DNA of 64,000 bases from NCBI GenBank assembly GCA_900637705.1, contig LR134390.1:3162001-3226000 (forward strand), given 5' to 3'. A program made the translations under genes and the position numbers. The notes below the pieces were generated by a model. That model made no database searches. It was given only the letters and a program-made list of their open reading frames with translations, and was not told where the DNA came from. Shown one piece after another: positions 10,780-53,423 of the stretch (position 1 is the first letter of the stretch; every line of letters starts with the position of its first letter). This stretch comes from Fusobacterium varium (GTDB taxonomy: Bacteria > Fusobacteriota > Fusobacteriia > Fusobacteriales > Fusobacteriaceae).

Positions 10780-10817
10780 AAAAAAGCATCTATGGAACAC
10801 ACTTGTCCCACAGATGC
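10780..10817 (-). terminator. Riboswitch-controlled terminator before the CDF gene
   Basis: Read on the minus strand, GCATCT-G-TGGGACA pairs with TGTTCCA-TAGATGC and is followed by TTTTTT. The left arm is the 3' part of the aptamer (helix 4 and the GGGACA junction), so metal binding would block terminator formation. This predicts an ON switch. Confidence 0.85.
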
Positions 10818-10880
10818 TGTTAATTTCATCTGCTGCTGTTTTTTTAACAGCCCGGTCTTATGACCTGATCAGTCTGTACT
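10797..10880 (-). ncRNA. NiCo riboswitch (czcD motif) aptamer
   Basis: On the minus strand the leader reads ACTGATCAGG, then a hairpin GGTC..GACC, then CCGGGCTG..CAGCAGCAGATG, a loop, CATCTGTGGGACAAGT. This matches my memory of the four-way-junction NiCo consensus (CAGG, CCGGGCUG, CAGAUG/CAUCUG, GGGACAGU), which senses Co2+ and Ni2+ cooperatively. It lies between a consensus promoter and the CDF exporter and overlaps a terminator. The gene context is exactly that of known members. A covariance-model search would settle it. Confidence 0.88.
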
Positions 10881-10924
10881 GTAAGTATTCCTATGAGAGA
10901 ATGCATCAGTGCAATATTATGATT

Positions 10925-19332: not shown

Positions 19333-19661
19333 TTTTTACTCCTTGTGTAGCACTGTATATAATTTAACTTTTTCATTCCTTATATTATATAATATTATAG
19401 AAGAAAAATTAACTTATATTATATCCTTTTTACATTATTATTATTCAAATTTTTAATTTAATATATATATTATTTCTATATATAAATTAGATAAAACTAT
19501 GTTTTTTAACTTAAAATCATATTTTATATAAATTTATAAAATATATAAAATAAATTATTGTTTTGAGGCTAGGATTTATAAATATATTGATTAACTTTTT
19601 TTGATAATTATAGTAAAATATAAATATAAGTATAAAAATTCTTGAGAATTGAGAGGAACTG
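19333..19661. other. Divergent intergenic region between hemA and the RluA-type gene
   Basis: Extremely AT-rich with several TATAAT-like words on both strands, as expected for two divergent promoters. I see no riboswitch, tRNA or gene and cannot choose the -35 boxes. Confidence 0.4.
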
Positions 19662-23602: not shown

Positions 23603-23628
23603 TTATGTAATCAATTATACTTTTAATG

Positions 23629-23660
23629 TAAAGAGTCTTGATATATCAGGGCTCTTTATT
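23629..23660 (+). terminator. Terminator after the GNAT gene
   Basis: AAAGAG / CTCTTT outer stem with an inner CTTGA/TCAGG stem, then TATTTTTAT. Moderate strength. Confidence 0.6.
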
Positions 23661-23785: not shown

Positions 23786-23803
23786 TTATACAAATTTTGA
23801 TAA
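23786..23803. promoter_or_regulatory. Repressor operator site O1 (imperfect)
   Basis: TTATACAAATTTTGATAA differs from the palindrome TTATACAAATTTGTATAA at two central-right positions. It lies just upstream of O2. Confidence 0.55.
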
Positions 23804-23807
23804 AACA

Positions 23808-23825
23808 TTTTACAAATTTGTATAA
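23808..23825. promoter_or_regulatory. Repressor operator site O2
   Basis: TTTTACAAATTTGTATAA, one mismatch to the palindrome. It overlaps the -35 element of the repressor's own promoter, which predicts autorepression. Confidence 0.7.
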
Positions 23826-23837
23826 AAAATATATAAT
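23809..23837 (+). promoter_or_regulatory. Promoter of the S24 repressor gene
   Basis: TTTACA, 17-base spacer, TATAAT, 32 bases before the start codon. The -35 lies inside operator O2. Confidence 0.7.
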
Positions 23838-23869
23838 ATAATAAAATAATATAGAAAGGTAGGAATAAC

Positions 23870-24649
23870 ATGGAGAAAAAGAAGGAGTTTTCAAAATATC
23901 TTGAGAATTTTATGAAAAAAAATGGATATAACTTAGAACAGATTTCAAGAGAAACAGGGGTTCCAGTAGCTACAATAGGACACTATAAGACAGGAAGAAG
24001 AACTCCTAAAAATGATTTTATTGATAAATTTGTTTCTGGATTCAATTTAAATTCACAAGAAAAAAAAGAAATTACAATGGCAATAGCTATTGATAGAACA
24101 CCTGAAGTTATTAAAGATAATATCTTTGATTTAAAAAATGTGAAGCCTATAAAGTTGATGGAAGTTCCACTATTTTCAAGTGTTTCAGCTGGTCTTGGGA
24201 GAGAAACTATTGCTGAGCCTATTGATTTTATTTCAATACCAAAAATATCAGGAAATAATATAGTGGCTATTTTGGTGCAGGGAGATTCTATGGAAGATAC
24301 CATTTTAGATGGGTCTATTGTAGTTGTAAATACAGAGTTAATGCCAGAAATAGGAGAGATTGGAGTATTTTTAACTAAGGGAAGCGATCATGCTGATGGA
24401 TTGGTAAAAAGATTAAAATATAAAAATGGTGAATATGTATTGGAAAGTGACAATAAAGAATATGATGATTTGAGAATAGAAAATAGTGATATTACAGCTT
24501 ATGGAAAAGTAATCCAAATAATAAATAATACAACTAAAAGAAGAAAAGATCCTTTAATGTCATATATAGATAAATTGGATATTCATGAAAGAGAAATGAT
24601 AGAAAGTATGCTAAAAGGGTTGATTGAAAAGAAAAAAGAAACTAAATAA
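23870..24649 (+). CDS. Autocleavable XRE/S24 (CI/LexA-like) repressor of the tail locus
   Basis: 259 residues. Residues 8-62 form a helix-turn-helix (LEQISRETGVPVATIGHYKT). Residues about 98-220 form an S24 peptidase with the expected Ala-Gly cleavage site at A107-G108 (SSVSAGLG), nucleophile S140 in VQGDSMEDTILDG and general base K180 in GLVKRLKY. Such repressors self-cleave when RecA filaments form. Four copies of one palindrome flank the gene and overlap its own promoter and the promoter facing the tail genes. This makes it the probable SOS switch of the locus. Shine-Dalgarno AAAGGTAGG. Confidence 0.93.
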   Translation: MEKKKEFSKYLENFMKKNGYNLEQISRETGVPVATIGHYKTGRRTPKNDFIDKFVSGFNLNSQEKKEITMAIAIDRTPEVIKDNIFDLKNVKPIKLMEVPLFSSVSAGLGRETIAEPIDFISIPKISGNNIVAILVQGDSMEDTILDGSIVVVNTELMPEIGEIGVFLTKGSDHADGLVKRLKYKNGEYVLESDNKEYDDLRIENSDITAYGKVIQIINNTTKRRKDPLMSYIDKLDIHEREMIESMLKGLIEKKKETK

Positions 24650-24701
24650 ATAGTAAAAAGAAAATCTTTAAAACTATATAAAAATAATAATAAAATTTTT
24701 C

Positions 24702-24730
24702 TTGACTTTATTTATACAAAAATGTATAAT
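24702..24730 (+). promoter_or_regulatory. Main promoter of the tail module
   Basis: TTGACT, 17-base spacer, TATAAT. Operator O3 fills most of the spacer and -10 box, so bound repressor would exclude RNA polymerase. Confidence 0.8.
24712..24729. promoter_or_regulatory. Repressor operator site O3
   Basis: TTATACAAAAATGTATAA, a palindrome-like site differing only in the two central-right bases from the O4 sequence. It lies within the tail-module promoter. Confidence 0.75.
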
Positions 24731-25063
24731 AATTTTAAGATAATTTCATGAAATATCTAAAAGTTTTATAGAACCAGTTTTAAAATTTAAGGGAGACAAT
24801 GTTTTCCTAGATTTCTATGTCTGTTTTCAAGGACTAAGGTTGCTTATTTTTAATATTTTTTTTAAAAAAAACTTATACAAATTTGTATAAAAAGTTAAAT
24901 CAATTCAACAGAACATCAATATTTTAATATTAGGATGAATGAAATCTTTCATTAAGAAATAAAAATATTGATTTAACATTAGAGATATGAAAATAAGTAA
25001 TTGAAAATTCTGGAGGATTTGGCATAGGAACCTGAAACAAACAAAATATAGGAGGGATACAAA
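24731..25063 (+). other. Long structured leader of the tail module
   Basis: No gene of convincing length. From the start point there is a hairpin AGATAATTTCATGAAATATCT, then a non-repetitive stretch with AGGGAGACA and TGTCT arms, an A/T-tract, operator O4 and a long stem around 24914-24975 (ATCAATATTTT / AAAATATTGAT). The spacing suggests RNA-level control or a second promoter under O4. Confidence 0.45.
24873..24890. promoter_or_regulatory. Repressor operator site O4 (perfect palindrome)
   Basis: TTATACAAATTTGTATAA, fully self-complementary, about 175 bases before the first tail gene. Confidence 0.8.
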
Positions 25064-25860
25064 GTGGTAAATATAAAAGAAGTAGTACATAACAGTAAAG
25101 AGAGATTTTTAGAGGTACAGCCTAATGGAGCAGGACTTTACATTGGAATGCAGGCATATGAAGCTATAAAGAATGAAAGCGAATATACAGACTCAATGAA
25201 AACTATAATTCCTAAAATGGAACTTTTAACAGGAACATTAGCTGGTACAGAATTTACAGTTACATCAGGAACTGTAGAAGTAATGGCTGCACCTAAAAAT
25301 GTTGTAGTAGTTCTATTTGATAAATCTGAATTAGACGGATTAGCAACTGCTGAAAATTTTAAAGGAATGGCAAACCCTAATCTTGTTGAAATTGTAAAAG
25401 TAACTGCAACAACTGCAAGTTCAATTACTTTAGCAAATGCACCTATAAATTCAGCTTTTACAAACGCTGTTTTACTTGAAAATGATGGATATATAGATGT
25501 AGCTCAAATAACAGATTTTTCATCTACTGAGCAACAAGCAGAAATAAGTACAAATAATAAACATTCAAATGGATATGAAAGTGCAATAGGGGGATTAAAA
25601 CATCTTCTATAGATGGAATTCAAGGATACTATCATCCAGATTTTCCTTCGGTAGCTACAATAAATTTTGCATTTGATGGAGAATTTACTATTAAAGCAAG
25701 ACATGGAGCATTAAAACAAAAAAATACCCCATACATTGAAGGTGTTTATAAAGTTGCAGAATTTACACATTCAGGAACTCTTGATGGTGGAAGTGCCCTA
25801 TCTTATACAGCAAGCTTGAAACTTCAATCAGGAATGATAGAAAAGAAAGTATTTCAATAA
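25064..25860 (+). CDS. Putative tail tube (major tail) protein, frame broken by one base
   Basis: GTG start with ATAGGAGGGATAC upstream. The first frame runs 182 codons to a TAG at 25610, and the downstream frame continues to TAA at 25860 with IDGIQGYYHPDFPSVATINF, then EFTIKARHG and SGTLDGGSALSYTASLKLQS. The switch is at a run of five G (25589-25593), where one more G or a -1 slip yields a single protein of about 265 residues. The position, first structural gene and directly before a chaperone and tape measure, is that of tail tube genes. The C-terminal strand pattern fits a tube fold. I do not recognise close homologues. Confidence 0.7.
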
Positions 25861-25949
25861 GGAGAATAGGGGAGAAATCCCCTTTCCCTTATTCTTTTAA
25901 ATGAAAATATTGAAATATTTTGATTTAAAAAAATAAGATGGGAGGCTAT

Positions 25950-26567
25950 ATGAAAGTAGAAATAAATGGTAAAGAATACAAATTAAAACTTAATTTAAGA
26001 GCGAGAATAAAACTTGCAAAATATTATTCAAATGAAATAGAAATGTATAAAAAAGCAGGGATAGGAAATTTGGAAGTCATTACTAAGATAATTTATTGTT
26101 CACTTCAAGAATGCCAATTTTCTTATGAAGTATTTTTAGAAAGTTATCCTGATATAAAAGAAAGTTATGAGATGTTTTATAAAGTTTTCCATAAGTTAAT
26201 AGAAGATGCTGGAAATCCTTTAAGTATAGAGATTAAAGAAAAATCAGAAGGAAAAATTGAAGAGAGAAAATCAGATAAAACTGATTTTAGAGAACTTATT
26301 ATTACATTGATGAGTAAGGGATACAAGCAGGAAGAAGTATTGGATATGACTTATTGGGATATAAATCTCATATTTGAAGCTGACTATAAACATTTGGAAA
26401 GAGAAGTATTTCATACAAATGCATTGATTAATACAATAGCTGGAATAGTTGGAAGCAAAAAAACAATAGATATTCTTGGGAGAAAGAAAAAAGATGAATA
26501 TAGAGATTATTCAACATTTCATGAGATAGGAACATTGCTGGATAAAAAAAGAATAAATATAGATTAA
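25950..26567 (+). CDS. Putative tail assembly chaperone
   Basis: About 205 residues. The start at 25950 is chosen because GGGAGG precedes it, whereas the ATG at 25938 lies upstream of that site. The N-terminal half (VEINGKEYKLKLNLRARIKL, then AKYYSNEIEMYK) resembles gpG-like chaperones that begin with a short beta unit and helices. The second half (DFRELIITLMSKGYKQEEVL, DMTYWDINLIFEADY) resembles the T part, where a small residue cluster binds the tape measure. Chaperones of this kind usually lie between the tube and tape-measure genes and are often expressed by frameshift. Here G and T parts appear fused without one. Confidence 0.65.
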   Translation: MKVEINGKEYKLKLNLRARIKLAKYYSNEIEMYKKAGIGNLEVITKIIYCSLQECQFSYEVFLESYPDIKESYEMFYKVFHKLIEDAGNPLSIEIKEKSEGKIEERKSDKTDFRELIITLMSKGYKQEEVLDMTYWDINLIFEADYKHLEREVFHTNALINTIAGIVGSKKTIDILGRKKKDEYRDYSTFHEIGTLLDKKRINID

Positions 26568-26592
26568 AATTTTTAAGAAAGGAGTGAAAAAA

Positions 26593-29120
26593 ATGAGTGT
26601 AGAAGCAGCAGCTGTATCAGTATTGAGTTACATAGGAAAAGATCTTTTGATAACTTTTTATAAAAAGAAAAGAGATCGTTTAATAGAAGAACTTTTGTCA
26701 GAAAAAGAGAGTTATGAAGATATTTACAAAAAACTTAGAGAAGAAGAAAAAAGAATGTTGAAATATTAGAAGAATTAGGAAAAAAAGAAGTTTTAAATCC
26801 TCAAGAAGAGAAGGAAATAAAAAAGGTATTAACAGATTTGTATCTTTCTGATCAAAAACTTTTTAATGCATATATAGAATTTAAAAATAATAAAATTACT
26901 TTGGAAGACTATGAGAAAATATTAAAAGCAACAAAGAGTAATAAAAATAAAAATAAAATAATAGATAATAACACAAAAATAAAAGAATTGGAAAAAAAAG
27001 CAGAGGAAAATAAAAAGAAGTTAAACTATAGCTTTTATAAATATGATGATCATGGAATGCAAATCACAATTCCTTTTGAAGAAGCAATAGCACAAGGATT
27101 TCCTGAAGAAATGTTAAATAAGCAATTTCCAGGTTTTGCGGCTCAATATGAAGAAATACAGAAATTATATAGAGAATATATAAATGATTTATCAGAAATA
27201 GAAAAATTAAAGAAAGAAAACTATAATCTTTTAAAGAATCCAATCCTTAATTCAGAAAAAAAAGAAGAACTTCAAGCATTATCTCAAGCAATAATAGAGC
27301 AAAAAAATAATAAAACTGAAAAAATGTCAAATAATAAAAAAACCAATCAGTTAGTAATTGAACCTGTTATAGATTTAACAGCTGAAGAAAAATATAAACA
27401 AGAAGAATTAAAAATAAATGCTGAATATAATAGAGAAGTTTTAGATGAAACAGAAGCCTTTAATGAAAAAATGAAAGAGCTTTTAAAAAGTAGAAATATA
27501 AATGAGATTCAAGAAGCCAAAAAAAATCATGAAGAAAAATTAAAAACGTTTGAAGAAAAAAATAAAATAGAACTTCTTAAACATCAAAAAAATAAACCTG
27601 GGGCAACAAGAATTGATATTGAAAATATAGATTCTAAATTGGAAATAATTAAAACAAATAGTGAAAAAGAAGAAAATGATAAAAAATATAATGATATACA
27701 GATAGTTGTTCAAAATTCTATTAATAATACAGGAACAGGACTAAAAAATCTTACAAGCATGTTTCAAATGTTAGGAGAGGTTACAGGTAAACAATCTATA
27801 AAAGATATCTCTAATGTATTGGGAACAGGAAGTTCCTTATTTGAAGCATTTAAAAATACAAGTATTGGAGCAGAGAAATTAGCTGGATTTTTTGGAGATA
27901 AGGCAATACCTGGATTTGAAAACTTTAATCAAGGAATGGGAATAGGAAATATAATAAGTGGTGCTTTAGGTGGAGGAACTGAAGGAAATCTTGGAAGCAT
28001 GATAGGGAGTGGAATAGGAACAGCAGTAGGTGGACCAGTAGGAAGTATTGTAGGTGGAGCTATTGGAAGTATTGGTGGAAGCATATTTGGAAGCAAGAGT
28101 AAAAAGAAGAAAAAAAGAGAAGAAAGAAAAAGAAAGGCTGCTCAAGAAAGATTGCAAAGAGGATTAATATCTGGACAGTACAAATGGCAGGATGTTGTTG
28201 AAGCATACAATGAAGATCTTTTAAAATTAGGAACAGGAAGCTATATTGATCTTTATGACAAGGTTTCTGCAAATACAGATTATGATAATATTTTATCAAG
28301 CCTTAATGGTGCAAAATCTGGTTCTGATGGAGTGAGTATGACAACTCTTAAGCAACTGATGCCACAGTACAATGAACAACAGATAATAGATTGGTTTAAA
28401 TCTCTGACTGGTGGAGCAGTTTTGAAAGGAGATATTTTAAGTACAGGAGAAGGAAAATATGGAGCTATTGATATTGGAGAACTTGCAAAACAAGTAACAA
28501 ATACAAATAGAGATCTTGAAAAAACACTTAAAACAACAATTAAGGGAATTATAAATTTTTCAGCAGATAGTTTAGCAGAAGTAGTTAAAAAAGGCTTCTT
28601 TGGAGGAATGGAAGATCTTGGAAATAATATTGAGAGTATGCTTGCTGAAAGTTTGAAAAATGCTTTTGTTAATACTGAAATATCAAAATCTCTATTCAAT
28701 GGGCTGTCAGATAAAGTATCAGATGTAGTAAAAGATATGTTTGTAAAAGATGGAAATCTTGGAATCAACCTTGAAATAGGAGAGTTAGAAAACTTATCAC
28801 TTACACAATATATAGAACTTATTAAAAAGTATACAGAAACTTCTAATGAAAAACTTGAAGAATTATTTCGAGAATTAGGATTGAATATGGATAACTTAAC
28901 AGGTAGTATGAATACTTTGAATAAAAATATGAGTAAAAATACAGTTCAGGGAATGGCTACAAATTTATGGAGATATAATTTAGGACAAAATGTGACAAGT
29001 GAATTTAATGGTGTGTTTGAAGTTGAGATACCAATAATTCTTGGAGATCAGTTATTGGATAAGAGAATAATAAAAATAACAAGCGACAGTATAAGAAAGG
29101 CAAGGAGGAATAAGTTTTAA
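26593..29120 (+). CDS. Tail tape-measure protein, frame broken by one base near the 5' end
   Basis: ATG 26593 follows AAAGGAG. Frame 1 ends after 59 codons at 26767-26769, while the second frame is open from about 26750 to 29120. The junction is a run of six A (26747-26752), where a seventh A joins MSVEAAAVSVLSYIGKDLLI and EELGKKEVLNPQEEKEIKKV. About 842 residues: long charged coiled coils (residues about 20-430), a glycine-zipper membrane-active segment (NIISGALGGG, GSGIGTAVGGPVGSIVGGAI), a KSKKKKKREERKRK patch and a helical C-terminus. Tape measures fix tail length at roughly 0.15 nm per residue, so about 125 nm is expected. Confidence 0.8.
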
Positions 29121-29836
29121 TGAGGACAGAAATTATAAAAGCAGATAACAGTAATCATGTGATAACAATAACAAAGAAAGAAGAAGAAATAACAATAGAA
29201 TTTGATTTTGAACTTGTTCCTGAAATGGCTCCTCGTTTCACTCTTCCTTTATGGGCTATGGGAAAAGAAGAGGAGTATGAATTTGAAGGAGGCTTTGTAC
29301 TTAAAACTGATGATACAGGAGCAAGGGATGTTCTATATAATCTTTTAGTAAGAATAAAAGGATACAAAGAATTGATATTTGTTTGTAAAACATCAGACAA
29401 ATATAAAGGAGAATTCAAATATATTTCACAAGCATTGAAAGATAATGGAATAATTATGAATGGAATAAGATTGAATTGTATAGCAAACATTGATAATACA
29501 AATTTTACTACTATGTTGAATAGTGTAAGAAATCATCAGGGAAATTTAATTGTTTCCACTACATTTGATGCTAAGAGAAAGAAAATATTTAATATCACAA
29601 CAGTTCCATTGATAGATATAGAATATCTTCTTTATCCTGATGTTTATTGTAACACTATAGAGGAATTTGAAAAAATTATATACAGTGATATAGGAGGTTA
29701 TAAAACATTCACAATATCAGGAAAAAATTACACAGTTGTATTGAAAGATGAAGTAAATGAAAGTTCTCAAACAGCAATAATTAATGGAGCAGTAAAAGAT
29801 TGTAAAATATATTCTTTCAGTTTAGAGGAGGTATAG
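29120..29836 (+). CDS. Putative distal tail / baseplate protein
   Basis: 238 residues, stop/start overlap (TAATG) with the tape measure. Mostly beta, with an N-terminal VITITKKEEEITIEFDFELV, a second beta half ending TFTISGKNYTVVLKD and a closing KIYSFSLEEV. I do not recognise the family. Size and place between tape measure and hub correspond to the distal tail protein (Dit) of siphoviruses, which forms the ring at the tail tip. No galectin-like extension is seen. Confidence 0.6.
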   Translation: MRTEIIKADNSNHVITITKKEEEITIEFDFELVPEMAPRFTLPLWAMGKEEEYEFEGGFVLKTDDTGARDVLYNLLVRIKGYKELIFVCKTSDKYKGEFKYISQALKDNGIIMNGIRLNCIANIDNTNFTTMLNSVRNHQGNLIVSTTFDAKRKKIFNITTVPLIDIEYLLYPDVYCNTIEEFEKIIYSDIGGYKTFTISGKNYTVVLKDEVNESSQTAIINGAVKDCKIYSFSLEEV

Positions 29837-29839
29837 ATA

Positions 29840-31576
29840 ATGAGAAAATTTTTACTTAAGTATGAACTCCTTGATAATGAAGGATTGTGGAAAGATTTTA
29901 CAGAACAGGTTGTTGGGACTACAACTATAAATCTTGGAAATATAGCTGAAGTTGGAAGTGAAGATTTTGGAATAGATAGTTTAAAGAAATTTGCTAATCT
30001 TACTATTCATAATGATAAAAATAAAAAACTTACAACGGGACCTATTCTATCAACTAATCAATTTCAATTAGGGAGAAGAGTAAGAATAAAAGTAAGAACG
30101 GCGAAATCTACAAATCACTATAACCTAAATTTAGTTGGAGAAGATAAAACATATATTCTTTTGAAAAATATAAAAGGGGTAGAAGAGATAGATTTGATAA
30201 GTGTTTATGATGGAGAACATTCATTATCACCAGCAGAAGCTGATTTAAAAATAGAAAATACTTCTCAAATGGCAAATGGTTTGTATGTGTATTTTAATAG
30301 AGTAGTTAAAGAATATGAGAAAATAGGTTTTTTAATAATAACAACAGCAAGTGATCTTGATGTTGATAGAGCAGAATTTGAAGGAACAGGAGCAAAAGAA
30401 TACTTTATTCCAAATGTAGATCCAGATATTGTGGAAATTTTGGGTTACTACAAGTATTCGTATCTGCCTTGGGGTATTGGATATTTTTCAAAAAAATATT
30501 TTTCTGATACTTATGGAGTAGAATATCTCTATTTTGCTAAAGAAGATGATCCAGATAATTTTCCATATTATATAGAGAGTGTTGTGAGAGAACAAAATGG
30601 AATAAAGGTAAAATTAAATACTGAATTACCAGTAAATGCAAGAATGGTAATTGGACTATTTTTTAATACAGCTGAAGATATCATAATATTTGATGGAAAA
30701 GTAAGACGATATGAGGGAAGAGGTTATCATAATGTTTCTCTTGAATGTCAGGATTTTTCATATGACCTTGATGTTATGGCAATAAATAAGACATATCCTA
30801 AAGGAGTTACATTTGAAGATACAATAAAACAGATATTAATTGATAATAAAAGAGAAGACATAGAATTTCTATATGATCCTCATAATACTGCTATTTTAAC
30901 AGAAGATTATAATATTGAAGATACAACTATATGGGACTCTATACAAAAACTTGCATTGTCAAAGGGATGGAGTTTGTATTTTAGGTATGATAGAACTAAA
31001 AATAAGCAGGTATTGATTTTTGAAGATACAGTTTCAGCAAGCTATATAACTTATCAGCTTCTCAGAGGAGATGTGGTTGGAGAGTTTAGTTATGTGGGAG
31101 ATTTAACAAGAGTAAGGAATATCGTATCAGTTGTATATAAAGATCAGAATGATAGTAATAAAGTAAAAACAATAGAACTTAAAGATGAAGACTCAATACT
31201 TAGATATAGAGAAAATAGATTAACACTGGGACTTGATTTAACAGAAAATTTAATAACTACAAATGACATGGCTATGAAGTTAGCAACACAGGCATTAAAG
31301 GATTTAAAAGATCCAGTAGTAAATTATACAATTGAAACAACATTAATGCCAAAATTAAAGCTCAATGATGAGCTATGGTATATACATGAAAATTTAACAG
31401 AAAGACCATTGTTTTTAAGAGCTTATTCCATTGAACATTCAATTTCTGTTGGAGATACAGGAGAACTTCAATGTAATACTGTTATTGCAGGTGGTGGAAA
31501 AATTCAGTATAAGCTTAATGAGTGGCTTTATAATGATAGTAAAATAAAAGATGATAAAGAGATAATTATAGTATAA
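29840..31576 (+). CDS. Putative tail hub / tail-associated protein (gp27-like)
   Basis: 578 residues. FDGKVRRYEGRGYHNVSLEC and FSYDLDVM early in the second half, then FEDTIKQILIDN, WDSIQKLALSKGWSLYFRYD and LLRGDVVGEFSYVGDLTRVR, followed by VSVVYKD. This is the usual pattern of phage tail hub or prophage endopeptidase-type proteins, in which a hinge domain repeats the gp27-like fold. No peptidase motif is obvious. It starts 3 bases after the previous gene, with GAGGAGG (29825-29831) as ribosome-binding site. Confidence 0.65.
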   Translation: MRKFLLKYELLDNEGLWKDFTEQVVGTTTINLGNIAEVGSEDFGIDSLKKFANLTIHNDKNKKLTTGPILSTNQFQLGRRVRIKVRTAKSTNHYNLNLVGEDKTYILLKNIKGVEEIDLISVYDGEHSLSPAEADLKIENTSQMANGLYVYFNRVVKEYEKIGFLIITTASDLDVDRAEFEGTGAKEYFIPNVDPDIVEILGYYKYSYLPWGIGYFSKKYFSDTYGVEYLYFAKEDDPDNFPYYIESVVREQNGIKVKLNTELPVNARMVIGLFFNTAEDIIIFDGKVRRYEGRGYHNVSLECQDFSYDLDVMAINKTYPKGVTFEDTIKQILIDNKREDIEFLYDPHNTAILTEDYNIEDTTIWDSIQKLALSKGWSLYFRYDRTKNKQVLIFEDTVSASYITYQLLRGDVVGEFSYVGDLTRVRNIVSVVYKDQNDSNKVKTIELKDEDSILRYRENRLTLGLDLTENLITTNDMAMKLATQALKDLKDPVVNYTIETTLMPKLKLNDELWYIHENLTERPLFLRAYSIEHSISVGDTGELQCNTVIAGGGKIQYKLNEWLYNDSKIKDDKEIIIV

Positions 31577-31585
31577 GGAGGAAAA

Positions 31586-32284
31586 ATGGCACTTGATAAA
31601 GGAAGATTAGAAGAAATAGCAACAGCAATAGCTTTAATGTATGATCCTGAGGTCTACTCAAAATTAAAAACAGAAATAAATAAACCTATGGCAGATATTC
31701 CAGCAGGTCATGCCTTGAATATAAATTGGGATAATATTGTGAATTCATATAAAGTAATAAAGGACTTTCTAAAAGAAACTCTATACAAAGAAGATATGTC
31801 AATGGAGAACATTGGAAGTAAACTTGTGCAAAGAGGGACAAATGGGGGGATAAAGGTAGGGGATGTATATTGTGGAAATATAATAACATCAACAGTAGCT
31901 ACAAATAATTTTGTGCCTCAAGTAGCGTATAGAGATAATAATGGATATTTACAATTTTGTAATGATAAAGAAAAATTTCAAAATTGGGTTGAAGTAGAAA
32001 AATTAATAAGTTGGAAAAAAATATGGAGTGGATATCAACAGGGTGATATAATACACCCTGATATATCAGGGTATAATGAGATTTTATTTATATATTCAAA
32101 TTTAAAAACAGGAAGAATTATCTCATTAAGTACTCCAATAAATGCTTGGTTAACGTATAATCAAGTATCTATGATGAATGGAGATCCTAACCATGATGGC
32201 TATGTATCAAGGATATCCAATACAGTAACTAGGATTAGTAGTGGAAGAACTAATTATGCTTTAATGGCTATATATGCAAGATAG
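31586..32284 (+). CDS. Putative tail fibre / tip protein
   Basis: 232 residues starting after TAAGGAGGA. An N-terminal helical part (LDKGRLEEIATAIALMYDPE) is followed by beta-rich sequence (KVGDVYCGNIITSTVATNNF, VPQVAYRDNNGYLQF) and a C-terminal domain NYALMAIYAR of the type that ends phage fibre and host-recognition proteins. No catalytic motif. It probably attaches to the hub and may be a receptor-binding component. Confidence 0.55.
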   Translation: MALDKGRLEEIATAIALMYDPEVYSKLKTEINKPMADIPAGHALNINWDNIVNSYKVIKDFLKETLYKEDMSMENIGSKLVQRGTNGGIKVGDVYCGNIITSTVATNNFVPQVAYRDNNGYLQFCNDKEKFQNWVEVEKLISWKKIWSGYQQGDIIHPDISGYNEILFIYSNLKTGRIISLSTPINAWLTYNQVSMMNGDPNHDGYVSRISNTVTRISSGRTNYALMAIYAR

Positions 32285-32293
32285 GAGGATTTA

Positions 32294-34024
32294 ATGAAAA
32301 AAGGTAATATATCTCTAAGTGTAAATGCAGAAGTTGTAGAAGGACCAAGAGGCCTTTCTATAAAAGAATTGAAATATAAAGAAACTCTTTCAAATGGGGA
32401 TAATGTTTATTCCGTTATAAGAGAAGATAATAATATTATAGGAGAAGTAACAGCAAAAAAAGGAGATAAAGGAAACACAGGAGAAAAGGGAGATACTGGA
32501 AGAGGAATAACAAGTATTATTAAAAAGAGTGAGATAAATGGTATTAGTTACTATGAAATACTTTATACTGATGGAAGAAAAGGAGAATTTATAGTAGAAG
32601 ATGGGTATAGTGCTTATCAGATAGCAATAAAAAATGGCTATGATGGAACAGAAGAGGAATGGTTATTATCTCTAATAGGAAAAGGCTTAGAATTTCAATG
32701 GGATGGAACGAAATTAGGAGTAAGAGTAGAAGGAGAGACAGAATATCAATATAGTAATGATTTGAAAGGTGAAAAAGGAGATAGAGGAGATATTGGACCT
32801 GGAAATATTCTCTCTATTGGAAAAGTTGACAAAGGAGAACAACCTCAAGTAACAATAGAAGGAGAAAGTCCAGAACAAATATTAAATTTTGTGTTACCAA
32901 AAGGAGATAAAGGAGAAACTGGAGAAAAAGGAGATAAGGGAGAACAAGGAATAAAAGGAAATGGAATCATAAGAACTCAATTTGTAAGGGAAGATAATGA
33001 GAAAGTATATTATAAGTTTATATATGATGATGGTTCTGAATTTCAATGGTCAACTTGGAAAGGAGAAGCAGGAGTTTCAGGAACAGGAGCAACTGCTGGA
33101 GATATTGTGGATACATTAGATAGAACAGTAGAAACTCCGGAAGACTGGCTATCACTTGAAAATTATAGACCCATAAATATTTTGGATTATCCTGAGATGA
33201 TAGATAAAGTAAAAACTACAAATACATATTGGGAGAATATTGTTCCAAAAGATTTAACAGGAACAGATGATACTAGATTTACAATGGAATGGGCTTATTT
33301 TGATATGAATCAAAATAAATATCCACTTCCATCTCAAAAATTAATAGCAGGAGTCAAAGGAGGAGCTCATAAACCAGAAAAAATAATTCTTCCATATGGT
33401 TCTAATGAACCAATAATTCAAGGAGCTGGAAATTATAAAATAGCAATAGCTTTTGGTGGAAGCATTGTAAGAGAATTAATAGCTAATAATGAAAATATAC
33501 TATGTATTGTTGATTTAAGATTTAAATCTCATGTTAGGGATCAATATGGAAATACTATATGGAGTTGGAATCAAATAGTCAATAGTTCAGGATTTCATAC
33601 TCATAATTATCAAGTAGGAAAGGCTCAGAAATCAGTTCATAATCTTTTAAGCAAATCAAAAGGGACAACAGATATAAGAATTGCTGCTGGAATGCAGTAT
33701 AACAAAATGGCAATGGAAACAGGAATGTTAACATTGTATCAAAATATTGATGATGCAAGGGATCCTAATTATATTGGATTTATAGTTGATTCAAATGAAA
33801 ATGATTTAGAAATTGAAATTTATAAAATGGAAATGTGGGTTCTTAAAAATGGAAGTGAAGAATATTTAGATTTATTTCCAAATAAATTAATGCCTAATTT
33901 TATACCATATTGGGAGGATTCAGCAGATAGTGGAGGAGATTTTGCTGATATTGATAAGTATTTTTATCTAGAACAAAATTTGAAAAGACAAATCTATTTA
34001 GGGAAAAAGGCAACAAGATTATAA
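32294..34024 (+). CDS. Tail fibre with collagen-like segments
   Basis: 576 residues. Three Gly-x-y runs are visible: KGDKGNTGEKGDTGRG (near residue 57), KGEKGDRGDIGPG (near 158) and KGDKGETGEKGDKGEQGIKG (near 203). They link globular parts such as SAYQIAIKNGYDGTEEEWL, a repeat known from phage fibres. The last 300 residues form a different beta-rich domain. The overall design is that of a trimeric receptor-binding fibre. Spacing of 9 bases to the previous gene. Confidence 0.75.
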   Translation: MKKGNISLSVNAEVVEGPRGLSIKELKYKETLSNGDNVYSVIREDNNIIGEVTAKKGDKGNTGEKGDTGRGITSIIKKSEINGISYYEILYTDGRKGEFIVEDGYSAYQIAIKNGYDGTEEEWLLSLIGKGLEFQWDGTKLGVRVEGETEYQYSNDLKGEKGDRGDIGPGNILSIGKVDKGEQPQVTIEGESPEQILNFVLPKGDKGETGEKGDKGEQGIKGNGIIRTQFVREDNEKVYYKFIYDDGSEFQWSTWKGEAGVSGTGATAGDIVDTLDRTVETPEDWLSLENYRPINILDYPEMIDKVKTTNTYWENIVPKDLTGTDDTRFTMEWAYFDMNQNKYPLPSQKLIAGVKGGAHKPEKIILPYGSNEPIIQGAGNYKIAIAFGGSIVRELIANNENILCIVDLRFKSHVRDQYGNTIWSWNQIVNSSGFHTHNYQVGKAQKSVHNLLSKSKGTTDIRIAAGMQYNKMAMETGMLTLYQNIDDARDPNYIGFIVDSNENDLEIEIYKMEMWVLKNGSEEYLDLFPNKLMPNFIPYWEDSADSGGDFADIDKYFYLEQNLKRQIYLGKKATRL

Positions 34025-34042
34025 AAAATTGAAAAAGTAATA

Positions 34043-34633
34043 TTGTATAATGAGGTGATATTTATAAAAATACAGGAAATAATAAAAGATATTGATGTAA
34101 ATAAAATCATGTATGTAATAGCTATAAATGAAATATCAGGAAATGAAAATACTATATGCAAATTTAGTTATGCAGGAGGAATATCAGGATATAGTTTTGG
34201 CAGAAGTCAGTTTGATATAAAACATAATTCAAAAGCAAGAGAATTTTTAAAAGAGAAATGTAGTTTTACAGCAGGAGATATTGATAGGTTATTAAAATTA
34301 GATAAAAATATTAATGATCTCAATGAAAAACTAAAGAAACATAGAAAAGAAATAGATGAATTAGATAAAGAACACATAAAAGAAATGGTAAATTATGTAG
34401 CCTCTCTGGGTGATTTATCAGAATTTGAAAATGAAAAAACTTTTGTTCATTTAGTGGATTATCACAATCAATTTAACCTTAGTAGAAACGGGCTTATGCA
34501 TAATTTTATAAAAAGTAAAAAAATATTAAAATCTGAAGATATATATAATTTTAAATTAGGCTTGAAATGGGGGAAAAAAGAACCTCAAGATGTAGAAAGA
34601 AGATATTTAAATATAGAAAATAATTGGAAATAA
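34043..34633 (+). CDS. Putative peptidoglycan hydrolase (endolysin), start uncertain
   Basis: Up to 196 residues. The 5' end is unclear: the only good Shine-Dalgarno, GAGGTGAT (34052-34059), points to an ATA codon at 34064, while TTG 34043 and GTG 34055 have none. The N-terminal part contains NEISG, then AGGISGYSFGRSQFDIKHNS, which resembles lysozyme-like wall hydrolases of phages (a Glu followed by Y-S-F-G-x-x-Q-x-D). A coil (INDLNEKLKKHRKEIDELDK) follows. Its position next to a holin supports a lysis role. Substrate bond unknown. Confidence 0.55.
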   Translation: MYNEVIFIKIQEIIKDIDVNKIMYVIAINEISGNENTICKFSYAGGISGYSFGRSQFDIKHNSKAREFLKEKCSFTAGDIDRLLKLDKNINDLNEKLKKHRKEIDELDKEHIKEMVNYVASLGDLSEFENEKTFVHLVDYHNQFNLSRNGLMHNFIKSKKILKSEDIYNFKLGLKWGKKEPQDVERRYLNIENNWK

Positions 34634-34647
34634 GAGAGGTGATATTA

Positions 34648-34986
34648 ATGTTTCAAAAAACTGTATTGAATGCAGTGAGCAGTTTTTTACCAGATATATT
34701 AAAAAGGTATTTACAGCCAGAAGAAATTGACCAGATAATGGCAGAGGTAGAAAAAGAAAGATTACAGGTATTCTCAAAAATCCTTGAAAGAGGAGGAATA
34801 CTCCATCTGTTTTATGTATATAGCATATTGGTAATATTTCATCATATAATAACCCCATATTTATCTGCATTTATGGGAGTAGAAATATATAGCCTTCCTA
34901 TTCCAGGAGAATTGACAGCATTAATTGGAAGCCTTGGAGCAGTTATACTAGGAAAGAAACATCTGGATAAAAAATTAAAAAACTAA
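34648..34986 (+). CDS. Holin-like membrane protein
   Basis: About 112 residues from ATG 34648, preceded by AGAGGTGAT. An ATG at 34624 would overlap the hydrolase. An amphipathic N-terminal half (LKRYLQPEEIDQIMAEVEKE) precedes two membrane segments (LFYVYSILVIFHHIITPYLS and LTALIGSLGAVILGK) and a short lysine tail (KKHLDKKLKN). This is the layout of small phage holins. Last gene before a terminator, so the lysis pair ends the module. Confidence 0.75.
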   Translation: MFQKTVLNAVSSFLPDILKRYLQPEEIDQIMAEVEKERLQVFSKILERGGILHLFYVYSILVIFHHIITPYLSAFMGVEIYSLPIPGELTALIGSLGAVILGKKHLDKKLKN

Positions 34987-35014
34987 ATTTAATTGAGATG
35001 GTAAATATTTTGTT

Positions 35015-35046
35015 AAAAAGGGAGTTTTCACTGAACTCCTTTTTTG
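35015..35046 (+). terminator. Terminator ending the tail/lysis module
   Basis: AAAGGGAGTT / AACTCCTTTT stem followed by a T-tract. Marks the right end of the tail operon. Confidence 0.8.
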
Positions 35047-43029: not shown

Positions 43030-43106
43030 CGGAATATAGCGCAGTCCGGTAGCGCATCTGCCTTGGGAGCAGAGGGCCGCAAGTTCGAATCTTGCTATTC
43101 CGACCA
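43030..43106 (+). tRNA. tRNA-Pro (UGG)
   Basis: 77 bases, acceptor CGGAATA / TATTCCG, encoded CCA. Anticodon loop CTTGGGA between CTGC / GCAG gives TGG. Standard TTCGAAT T-loop. Confidence 0.95.
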
Positions 43107-43111
43107 TCTAT

Positions 43112-43187
<76 letters not shown>

Positions 43188-43203
43188 TTTGAGACTACTG
43201 AGT

Positions 43204-43280
<77 letters not shown>

Positions 43281-43313
43281 CTATCCAAAATTACAGATTC
43301 ATAGTTTAGATAT

Positions 43314-43390
43314 GGTGATCGTAGTTCAGTTGGTAGAGCGCCAGTTTGTGGCACTGGTTGTCGCGAGTTCAAGCCTCGTCGATCACCCCA
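43314..43390 (+). tRNA. tRNA-His (GUG)
   Basis: 77 bases with the histidine-specific G-1 paired to C73, acceptor GTGATCG / CGATCAC, anticodon loop TTGTGGC gives GTG, CCA encoded. Confidence 0.95.
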
Positions 43391-43404
43391 TTAAAATTTA
43401 ATAT

Positions 43405-43480
43405 GCGTCATTAGCTCAGCTGGTAGAGCACACGACTTTTAATCGTGTTGCCACAAGTTCAAATCTTGTATGACGCACCA
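43405..43480 (+). tRNA. tRNA-Lys (UUU)
   Basis: 76 bases, acceptor GCGTCAT / ATGACGC, anticodon loop CTTTTAA gives TTT, CCA encoded. Confidence 0.95.
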
Positions 43481-43484
43481 TCGT

Positions 43485-43568
43485 GCGAGGATGGCGGAAT
43501 TGGCAGACGCGCTAGACTTAGGATCTAGTGTCCCAGACGTGAGAGTTCAAGTCTCTCTCTTCGCACCA
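43485..43568 (+). tRNA. tRNA-Leu (UAG)
   Basis: 84 bases with the long class II variable arm, acceptor GCGAGGA-type, anticodon loop CTTAGGA gives TAG, CCA encoded. Confidence 0.93.
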
Positions 43569-46080: not shown

Positions 46081-46157
46081 GCCTAGATAGCTCAGTTGGC
46101 TAGAGCATACGGTTCATACCCGTACGGTCGATGGTTCGAATCCATTTCTAGGCACCA
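46081..46157 (+). tRNA. tRNA-Met (CAU), elongator type
   Basis: 77 bases, acceptor GCCTAGA / TCTAGGC, anticodon loop TTCATAC, CCA encoded. The anticodon stem TACGG / CCGTA lacks the three G-C pairs of an initiator, so elongator Met is likely. A lysidine-modified Ile tRNA cannot be excluded by sequence alone. Confidence 0.9.
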
Positions 46158-53322: not shown

Positions 53323-53397
53323 TATCAGTTATATGACTGACGGAACGTGGAATTAACCACATGAAGTATAACGATGATAATGCCGACCGTCTGGGCA
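53323..53397 (+). ncRNA. ZTP (pfl) riboswitch aptamer
   Basis: The sequence runs TATCAG..GACTGACGGAACGTGG..CCAC..GCCGACCGTCTGGGC. The GACGGAAC..CCGACCGTCTGGGC core matches the pfl/ZTP consensus, and from memory it is nearly the aptamer from F. ulcerans used in crystal structures. It senses the purine intermediates ZMP/ZTP, which accumulate when 10-formyl-tetrahydrofolate is low. Downstream gene is pflB, as in the motif's name. Confidence 0.93.
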
Positions 53398-53423
53398 AAT
53401 AAGCCTAGATTGTCGGTTTTTTT
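53382..53423 (+). terminator. Riboswitch-controlled terminator
   Basis: CCGACCGTCTGGGC pairs with GCCTAGATTGTCGG, then T7. The left arm is the aptamer's conserved 3' part, so ligand binding disrupts the terminator and turns pflB on. Confidence 0.9.

Follow-up and report, generated by a model that had tools for sequence, protein, structure and literature searches.

A predicted CI/LexA-type switch for an F-type tailocin in Fusobacterium varium, with one operator inside a conserved leader hairpin

A phage-type tail gene cluster of Fusobacterium varium is likely to be controlled by a master switch of the CI/LexA type, in which one repressor acts through four palindromic operators (O1 to O4), the last of them serves as an elongation block, and the leader of the tail transcript folds into a long hairpin around that same site. 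By its gene content the cluster is an F-type (sheathless, headless) tailocin, which occupies a single, fixed chromosomal position downstream of pgk in several species of one genus. Repressor binding, self-cleavage, blocking or looping at O4, and a function for the leader are what we infer from the arrangement and conservation of these elements. The switch is of a known kind in an altered form, and the leader RNA is its undescribed part. Our literature search found no paper on a Fusobacterium tailocin; for this genus, the locus provides a compact and fully laid-out tailocin control circuit that predicts which sites matter. It also shows a prophage switch rebuilt after loss of its lytic genes, with the repressor now placed in line with the operon it silences, and its operator-in-hairpin layout lets the coupling between a DNA roadblock and RNA folding be tested directly.

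The proposed mechanism is as follows. In uninduced cells, a repressor dimer on O3 would cover the -10 box of the tail-operon promoter (P_tail), while a second dimer on O4, about 137-154 bp into the leader, would halt polymerases leaking from P_tail or reading on from the repressor gene; O4-bound repressor may also loop to O3. O2, with help from the weaker O1, would cover the -35 box of the repressor promoter, resulting in negative autoregulation. Upon DNA damage, active RecA would cause the repressor to cut itself at Ala107-Gly108, so that all sites would be vacated together, and the tail mRNA produced after induction would carry the leader folded as a long hairpin around O4.

Results

Layout of the switch

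The features identified in the window (the whole 64,000-nucleotide stretch of DNA that was analysed) are collected in Table 1. The original prediction described four copies of one 18-bp palindrome, and our search recovers all four: O4 is an exact palindrome, from which O1, O2 and O3 differ by two, one and two mismatches. It placed O2 over the repressor's own -35 box, and the hexamer TTTACA (23809-23814) does lie inside O2; likewise O3 overlaps the tail promoter at its spacer and -10 box (TATAAT, 24725-24730), the -35 box of this promoter being TTGACT (24702-24707). These are the two best plus-strand promoters in the 14 kb scanned. O4 is located downstream of O3 as described, with 143 bases rather than 145 separating the two sites (161 bp start to start), and lies outside every predicted promoter, in agreement with the initial impression that it has no obvious promoter of its own.

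Table 1. Coordinates of the elements of the predicted tailocin switch in the window
Feature	Position	Strand	Remarks
Intrinsic terminator	23628..23659	+	After the upstream GNAT gene, shields the switch from upstream transcription; hairpin -16.3 kcal/mol
Operator O1 (predicted)	23786-23803	.	2 mismatches to O4; right half NGATAA, half-defective in 4/4 species; 22 bp from O2
Operator O2 (predicted)	23808-23825	.	1 mismatch to O4; includes -35 box of repressor promoter
Repressor promoter	23809..23837	+	TTTACA-17-TATAAT; both hexamers invariant in four species
CI/LexA-type repressor gene	23870..24649	+	259 aa; HTH_3 and Peptidase_S24; predicted cleavage site Ala107-Gly108; Ser140/Lys180
P_tail, tail-operon promoter	24702..24730	+	TTGACT-17-TATAAT
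Operator O3 (predicted)	24712-24729	.	2 mismatches to O4; over spacer and -10 box of P_tail
Untranslated leader	24737..25063	+	About 327 nt; transcription start inferred from the -10 box
Small conserved hairpin	24790..24808	+	Weak terminator-like score, in the window copy alone
Long conserved leader hairpin	24810..25032	+	About 225 nt; outer arm 24810-24833/25008-25032
Long hairpin, inner arm	24838-24861 with 24981-25002	+	
Operator O4 (predicted)	24873-24890	.	0 mismatches, exact palindrome; about +137 to +154 within the leader; half-sites also a 6-bp RNA stem
Long hairpin, apical hairpin	24894-24903 with 24968-24977	+	
Shine-Dalgarno AGGAGG of first tail gene	25050..25055	+	Just beyond the long hairpin (about 17 nt after its end); conserved
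First tail gene	25064..25612	+	Major tail protein-like, judged by its position and by prophage homologues; frame truncated by loss of one base, unlike in the other three species
Rest of tail operon	25938..34986	+	Tail assembly chaperone, short tape measure, tail proteins, fibre, two small 3'-end genes
Intrinsic terminator, tail operon end	35014..35046	+	-14.2 kcal/mol

The palindrome is rare. At three mismatches or fewer, the 64 kb contain five matches for 0.63 expected, the fifth being an unrelated one at 19524, and no exact operator match was produced in 20 simulated 64-kb sequences. A search for further genomic copies, proposed at the outset as a check, was run over the whole 3.3-Mb genome: at two mismatches or fewer it returns O1-O4 and two others, while a reversed control pattern returns five. 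The half-site pattern TTATAC-N6-GTATAA is found exactly in O3, in O4 and at one spot within an unrelated ORF only. Copies away from the switch are at chance level, and the palindrome is not widespread at unrelated genes.

Repressor and tail genes are codirectional, and no strong intrinsic terminator was found between them in any of the four species compared (see below), the sole candidate in the window copy being the weak terminator-like hairpin at 24790, within the leader. This absence had gone unnoticed in the initial reading. Because no strong terminator intervenes and the repressor must be transcribed in uninduced cells, repressor transcription would continue into the tail genes; Rho-dependent termination 3' of the repressor gene is possible on the sequence. 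Neither a cro-type gene nor a divergent lytic promoter was found: upstream lies the codirectional GNAT gene ending in its terminator, with no divergent gene between. The lysogeny-type layout first proposed is therefore retained for the repressor and operators, in a simplified form that lacks these two elements.

The arrangement is conserved. Sequence places the present genome in Fusobacterium, its gap-pgk DNA being 78.6% identical to that of F. vincentii over the full length. Repressor orthologues with 95-96% identity occur in three other Fusobacterium genomes, and the gene neighbourhood is shared: pgk and GNAT lie upstream in those loci whose upstream region was retrieved, and the tail operon is followed by a common set of genes. 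All four operators and both promoters are kept in place in the four species, with start-to-start spacings of 22 bp for O1-O2, 902-905 bp for O2-O3 and 158-161 bp for O3-O4. In both O3 and O4, all 12 half-site bases are identical across the four species and the central bases vary. The defective right half of O1 is also kept in all four, which suggests a weak site by design.

The repressor and its recognition helix

Pfam places an HTH_3 domain, above cut-off, at residues 13-61 of the repressor and gives a Peptidase_S24 match of 69 bits, and repressor families are matched in PHROG. Residues A107, G108, S140 and K180 are invariant among nine homologues. The solved folds closest to the predicted model (mean pLDDT 78, pTM 0.49, hence a comparison at domain level only) are lambda CI bound to RecA, lambda CI fragments and LexA. 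RecA-driven self-cleavage is established for LexA and lambda CI, and from its conserved residues the present repressor is expected to be RecA-cleavable. Past the S24 domain is a C-terminal helical segment (24545-24646; DPL..YIDKL...R..IE.ML.GL..KK) common to the Fusobacteriaceae prophage repressors L071-L077 and L083, which possibly serves oligomerisation. Searches with the repressor gave no match in viral contigs and one weak S24 relative in genome contigs.

The strongest evidence that the palindromes are operators of this repressor is comparative, and relates the type of recognition helix to the type of operator. We scanned 33 S24-repressor loci in Fusobacteriaceae, with about 0.2 TTnTAC-N6-GTAnAA sites expected per region. 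Such sites surround the gene in the four orthologues and in eight distant relatives (GHYKTG or GHYRKG helix). These eight have two to three or more upstream sites, usually three, and one of them, L079, has exactly TTATACAAATTTGTATAA; the site nearest the start codon begins with TTTTAC in all eight, like O2, at the place where O2 overlaps the -35 box. Twelve relatives with a QSYYN helix have none upstream, their single one-mismatch match falling inside the coding region of one locus. For the remaining helix types the operator pattern is at chance level; one locus with an SHYTTG helix (L021) has one exact site, and L078, whose GHYIKG helix is similar, has no such sites upstream and counts against the match. 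Overall, O1-O4 are well supported as predicted operators of the adjoining repressor. The autoregulated, lysogeny-type repressor originally envisaged thus gains support from family and fold, from the conservation of its sites in four species and from the match of helix and operator across Fusobacteriaceae.

This same comparison points to an origin that the initial reading had missed: O1/O2 and the repressor derive from a prophage CI immunity module, and the tailocin switch is such a module rebuilt, with autoregulation kept and the divergent lytic side lost.

The genome encodes one other S24 protein (G000:C1:2703501-2704211; L018, L095). Relatives sharing its QSYYN helix are present in nearly every genome of the genus, and it may be a core SOS-type regulator.

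A conserved structured leader

The long hairpin around O4 in the tail operon leader was also overlooked at first. The leader is 84-88% identical to the window copy in the three other species, and RNAalifold yields a consensus of -53.9 kcal/mol, against -22.8 +/- 4.3 for column shuffles (z = -7.2) and -25.5 for the reverse strand. In this fold, O4 is a small stem in the upper part of a long interrupted hairpin, with further stems alongside. Folded as a single sequence, the window copy has a z of -3.9 in sense and -0.9 in antisense, and each of the four species folds in this way alone (sense z -1.8 to -3.7, antisense -0.8 to +0.5). Standard pairs occupy 99.1% of 351 pair cells, compared with 37-51% when one side is slid, and over the six species comparisons 74 of the 83 pairs that differ are still paired. 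The paired-cell count and covariation score are reached by 6-7 of 500 shuffles (6/500 for the covariation score), and the four doubly changed pairs are equalled in 97/500. Taken over four fairly close sequences, fold conservation is strong and covariation proper is modest.

No Rfam family matches the leader, even at E 10, so that a known riboswitch or other catalogued RNA family is set aside. For the distribution beyond the genus, phages, plasmids and viral contigs were searched by DNA and by pattern: phages, plasmids and related prophages gave only short A+T-rich DNA matches, and the exact leader pattern had no match in viral contigs. A covariance model of the leader found no credible match in two sister prophages or in viral-contig relatives; the sister prophages lack the leader, and their copy of the first tail gene comes straight after another phage gene. 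One weak genus-wide covariance match (G007, E 0.004) is attributed to chance, the 332-position model being squeezed into 166 nt. Two other explanations were also rejected: a leader peptide or translational attenuation, as the short leader ORFs stay open in only two of the four species; and a mobile inverted repeat, given a signal on one strand only and 8-12 G-U pairs among the 44 of the long arms. Judging from these comparisons, the leader is an undescribed structured RNA, conserved and absent from the catalogues searched.

Function of O4 and of the leader

Two roles were initially suggested for O4, an elongation block or the cover of a second promoter. The block fits better, and no -35/-10 pair overlaps O4. 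Since no strong terminator follows the repressor gene, O4 is most likely an elongation block ("stoperator") and/or a looping partner of O3. Precedents exist: in cluster A mycobacteriophages, repressor sites block elongation (PMC6550527), and in HK022 an operator for CI situated 300 bp downstream of OR takes part in immunity (PMC8053113). It is possible, if somewhat doubtful, that O4 is a looping partner and not a block, CI-type oligomers bridging O3 and O4 (perhaps also O1/O2, some 900 bp away) and raising the occupancy of O3. The O3-O4 spacing is constant and near 15 helical turns, the CI proteins of lambda and HK022 loop DNA (PMC8053113), and the repressor shares its extra C-terminal helical segment with several prophage relatives; however, the absence of a terminator after the repressor gene gives a block at O4 a use without any loop, and both can hold. 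We consider it quite unlikely that O4 survives purely as an RNA hairpin, with the palindrome retained as a leader stem and its use by the repressor lost. Its half-sites do form a 6-bp stem in all four species, with differing central bases, but those half-sites are exact at 12/12 bases, like those of O3, whose centre also varies; a chance coincidence of stem and operator is improbable in view of the simulations above, and a stem would be free to change by compensation, of which no instance is seen. With O4 read as an elongation block and/or looping partner, part of its conservation could still be due to the leader stem formed by its half-sites.

As for the leader, the hairpin probably has a cis effect on the approximately 10-kb transcript, at the level of its elongation, processing or stability. 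It is quite possible that its only role is in the processing or stability of the tail mRNA (for instance through RNase III cleavage) or in the accessibility of the start codon (GTG at 25064), with no link to O4: in all four species the hairpin is a long double-stranded element, and it stops ahead of the Shine-Dalgarno sequence, but the latter is mostly unpaired in the predicted fold and direct translational control is not evident. A processive antiterminator acting in cis, through which polymerase would cross the terminators of the 10-kb tail operon, seems improbable. The leader resembles HK022 put and other leader antitermination elements in being a structured RNA that opens a long operon of phage type, and it has the same position at the operon head as put (PMC9378689) and conAn systems (PMC8955417); downstream of the first tail gene is a weak terminator-like hairpin, and no antiterminator gene was recognised in the cluster. 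Against this, put consists of about 70 nt in two stem-loops (PMC9378689) where the leader is one interrupted hairpin of about 225 nt, so that it departs from the put type in size and fold, and that weak site is the only internal terminator-like one on the coding strand before the operon end. A more ambitious proposal, which we put forward as speculative and rather unlikely, is that the leader represents a cis-acting regulatory RNA of a new class, organised around an operator that it contains, a single site being first a DNA lock and then an RNA element: with repressor on O4, only the 5' arm would be made and transcription would abort; with the repressor gone, the full hairpin would help polymerase or mRNA through the long operon.

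Comparison with known systems

The repressor and its sites resemble prophage CI modules (lambda, HK022, Staphylococcus and Fusobacterium phages) in the combination of HTH and S24 domains, cleavage site and Ser/Lys dyad, and in repeated palindromic operators, one of them over the repressor's own promoter, with an extra downstream operator as in HK022. Unlike in these modules, the repressor and structural genes are codirectional and the operon under repression consists of tail genes alone, with no cro-type or divergent lytic side found. Pyocins use PrtR/PrtN, whereas direct repression by one CI-type repressor beside the operon is predicted here. In other respects the cluster is akin to F-type tailocins such as the Listeria monocin ftb cluster and F-type pyocins: siphovirus-like tail genes without head genes are located at a fixed chromosomal site, and SOS induction, as reported for monocins (PMC7076858), is expected. 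With the stoperators of cluster A mycobacteriophages, the proposed block at O4 has in common that repressor sites lie outside promoters; those phages, however, have 20-30 oriented, non-cooperative sites of about 13 bp (PMC6550527), versus four palindromes here with one off-promoter.

The tail operon and its origin

Tail families including the tape measure are present in the cluster, head, terminase and integrase genes are absent, and no sheath was recognised. The flanking genes are chromosomal and common to the four species, and the two small 3' genes have no significant match to lysis families. Related tail genes were found in two prophages of the same genus (L060, L061), at one locus of a neighbouring genus and in two viral contigs. 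Since the tape measure (26838-29120) has 760 aa, about half the length of the open frames in L060 and L061 (approximately 1460-1510 aa), the tailocin appears to be a tail module that was shortened, came under the control of a CI switch and became fixed before the four species diverged; with a half-length tape measure, the tail is predicted to be much shorter.

In the first tail gene, a short A run (25595-25612) has one A fewer than in the three congeneric species and the frame closes early. Either a sequencing error or a recent loss, the latter leaving this strain with a broken tailocin, may explain this frameshift. After this gene comes the terminator-like hairpin at 25868-25889, which has a counterpart in the other tailocins and in prophages and could determine how much major tail protein is made relative to the other tail products.

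Elsewhere in the window, a NiCo riboswitch (10800-10882, minus strand) and a ZMP/ZTP riboswitch (53323-53403, plus strand) both score above the gathering score, and tRNA genes form a cluster at 43030-43565, with a further tRNA at 46081.
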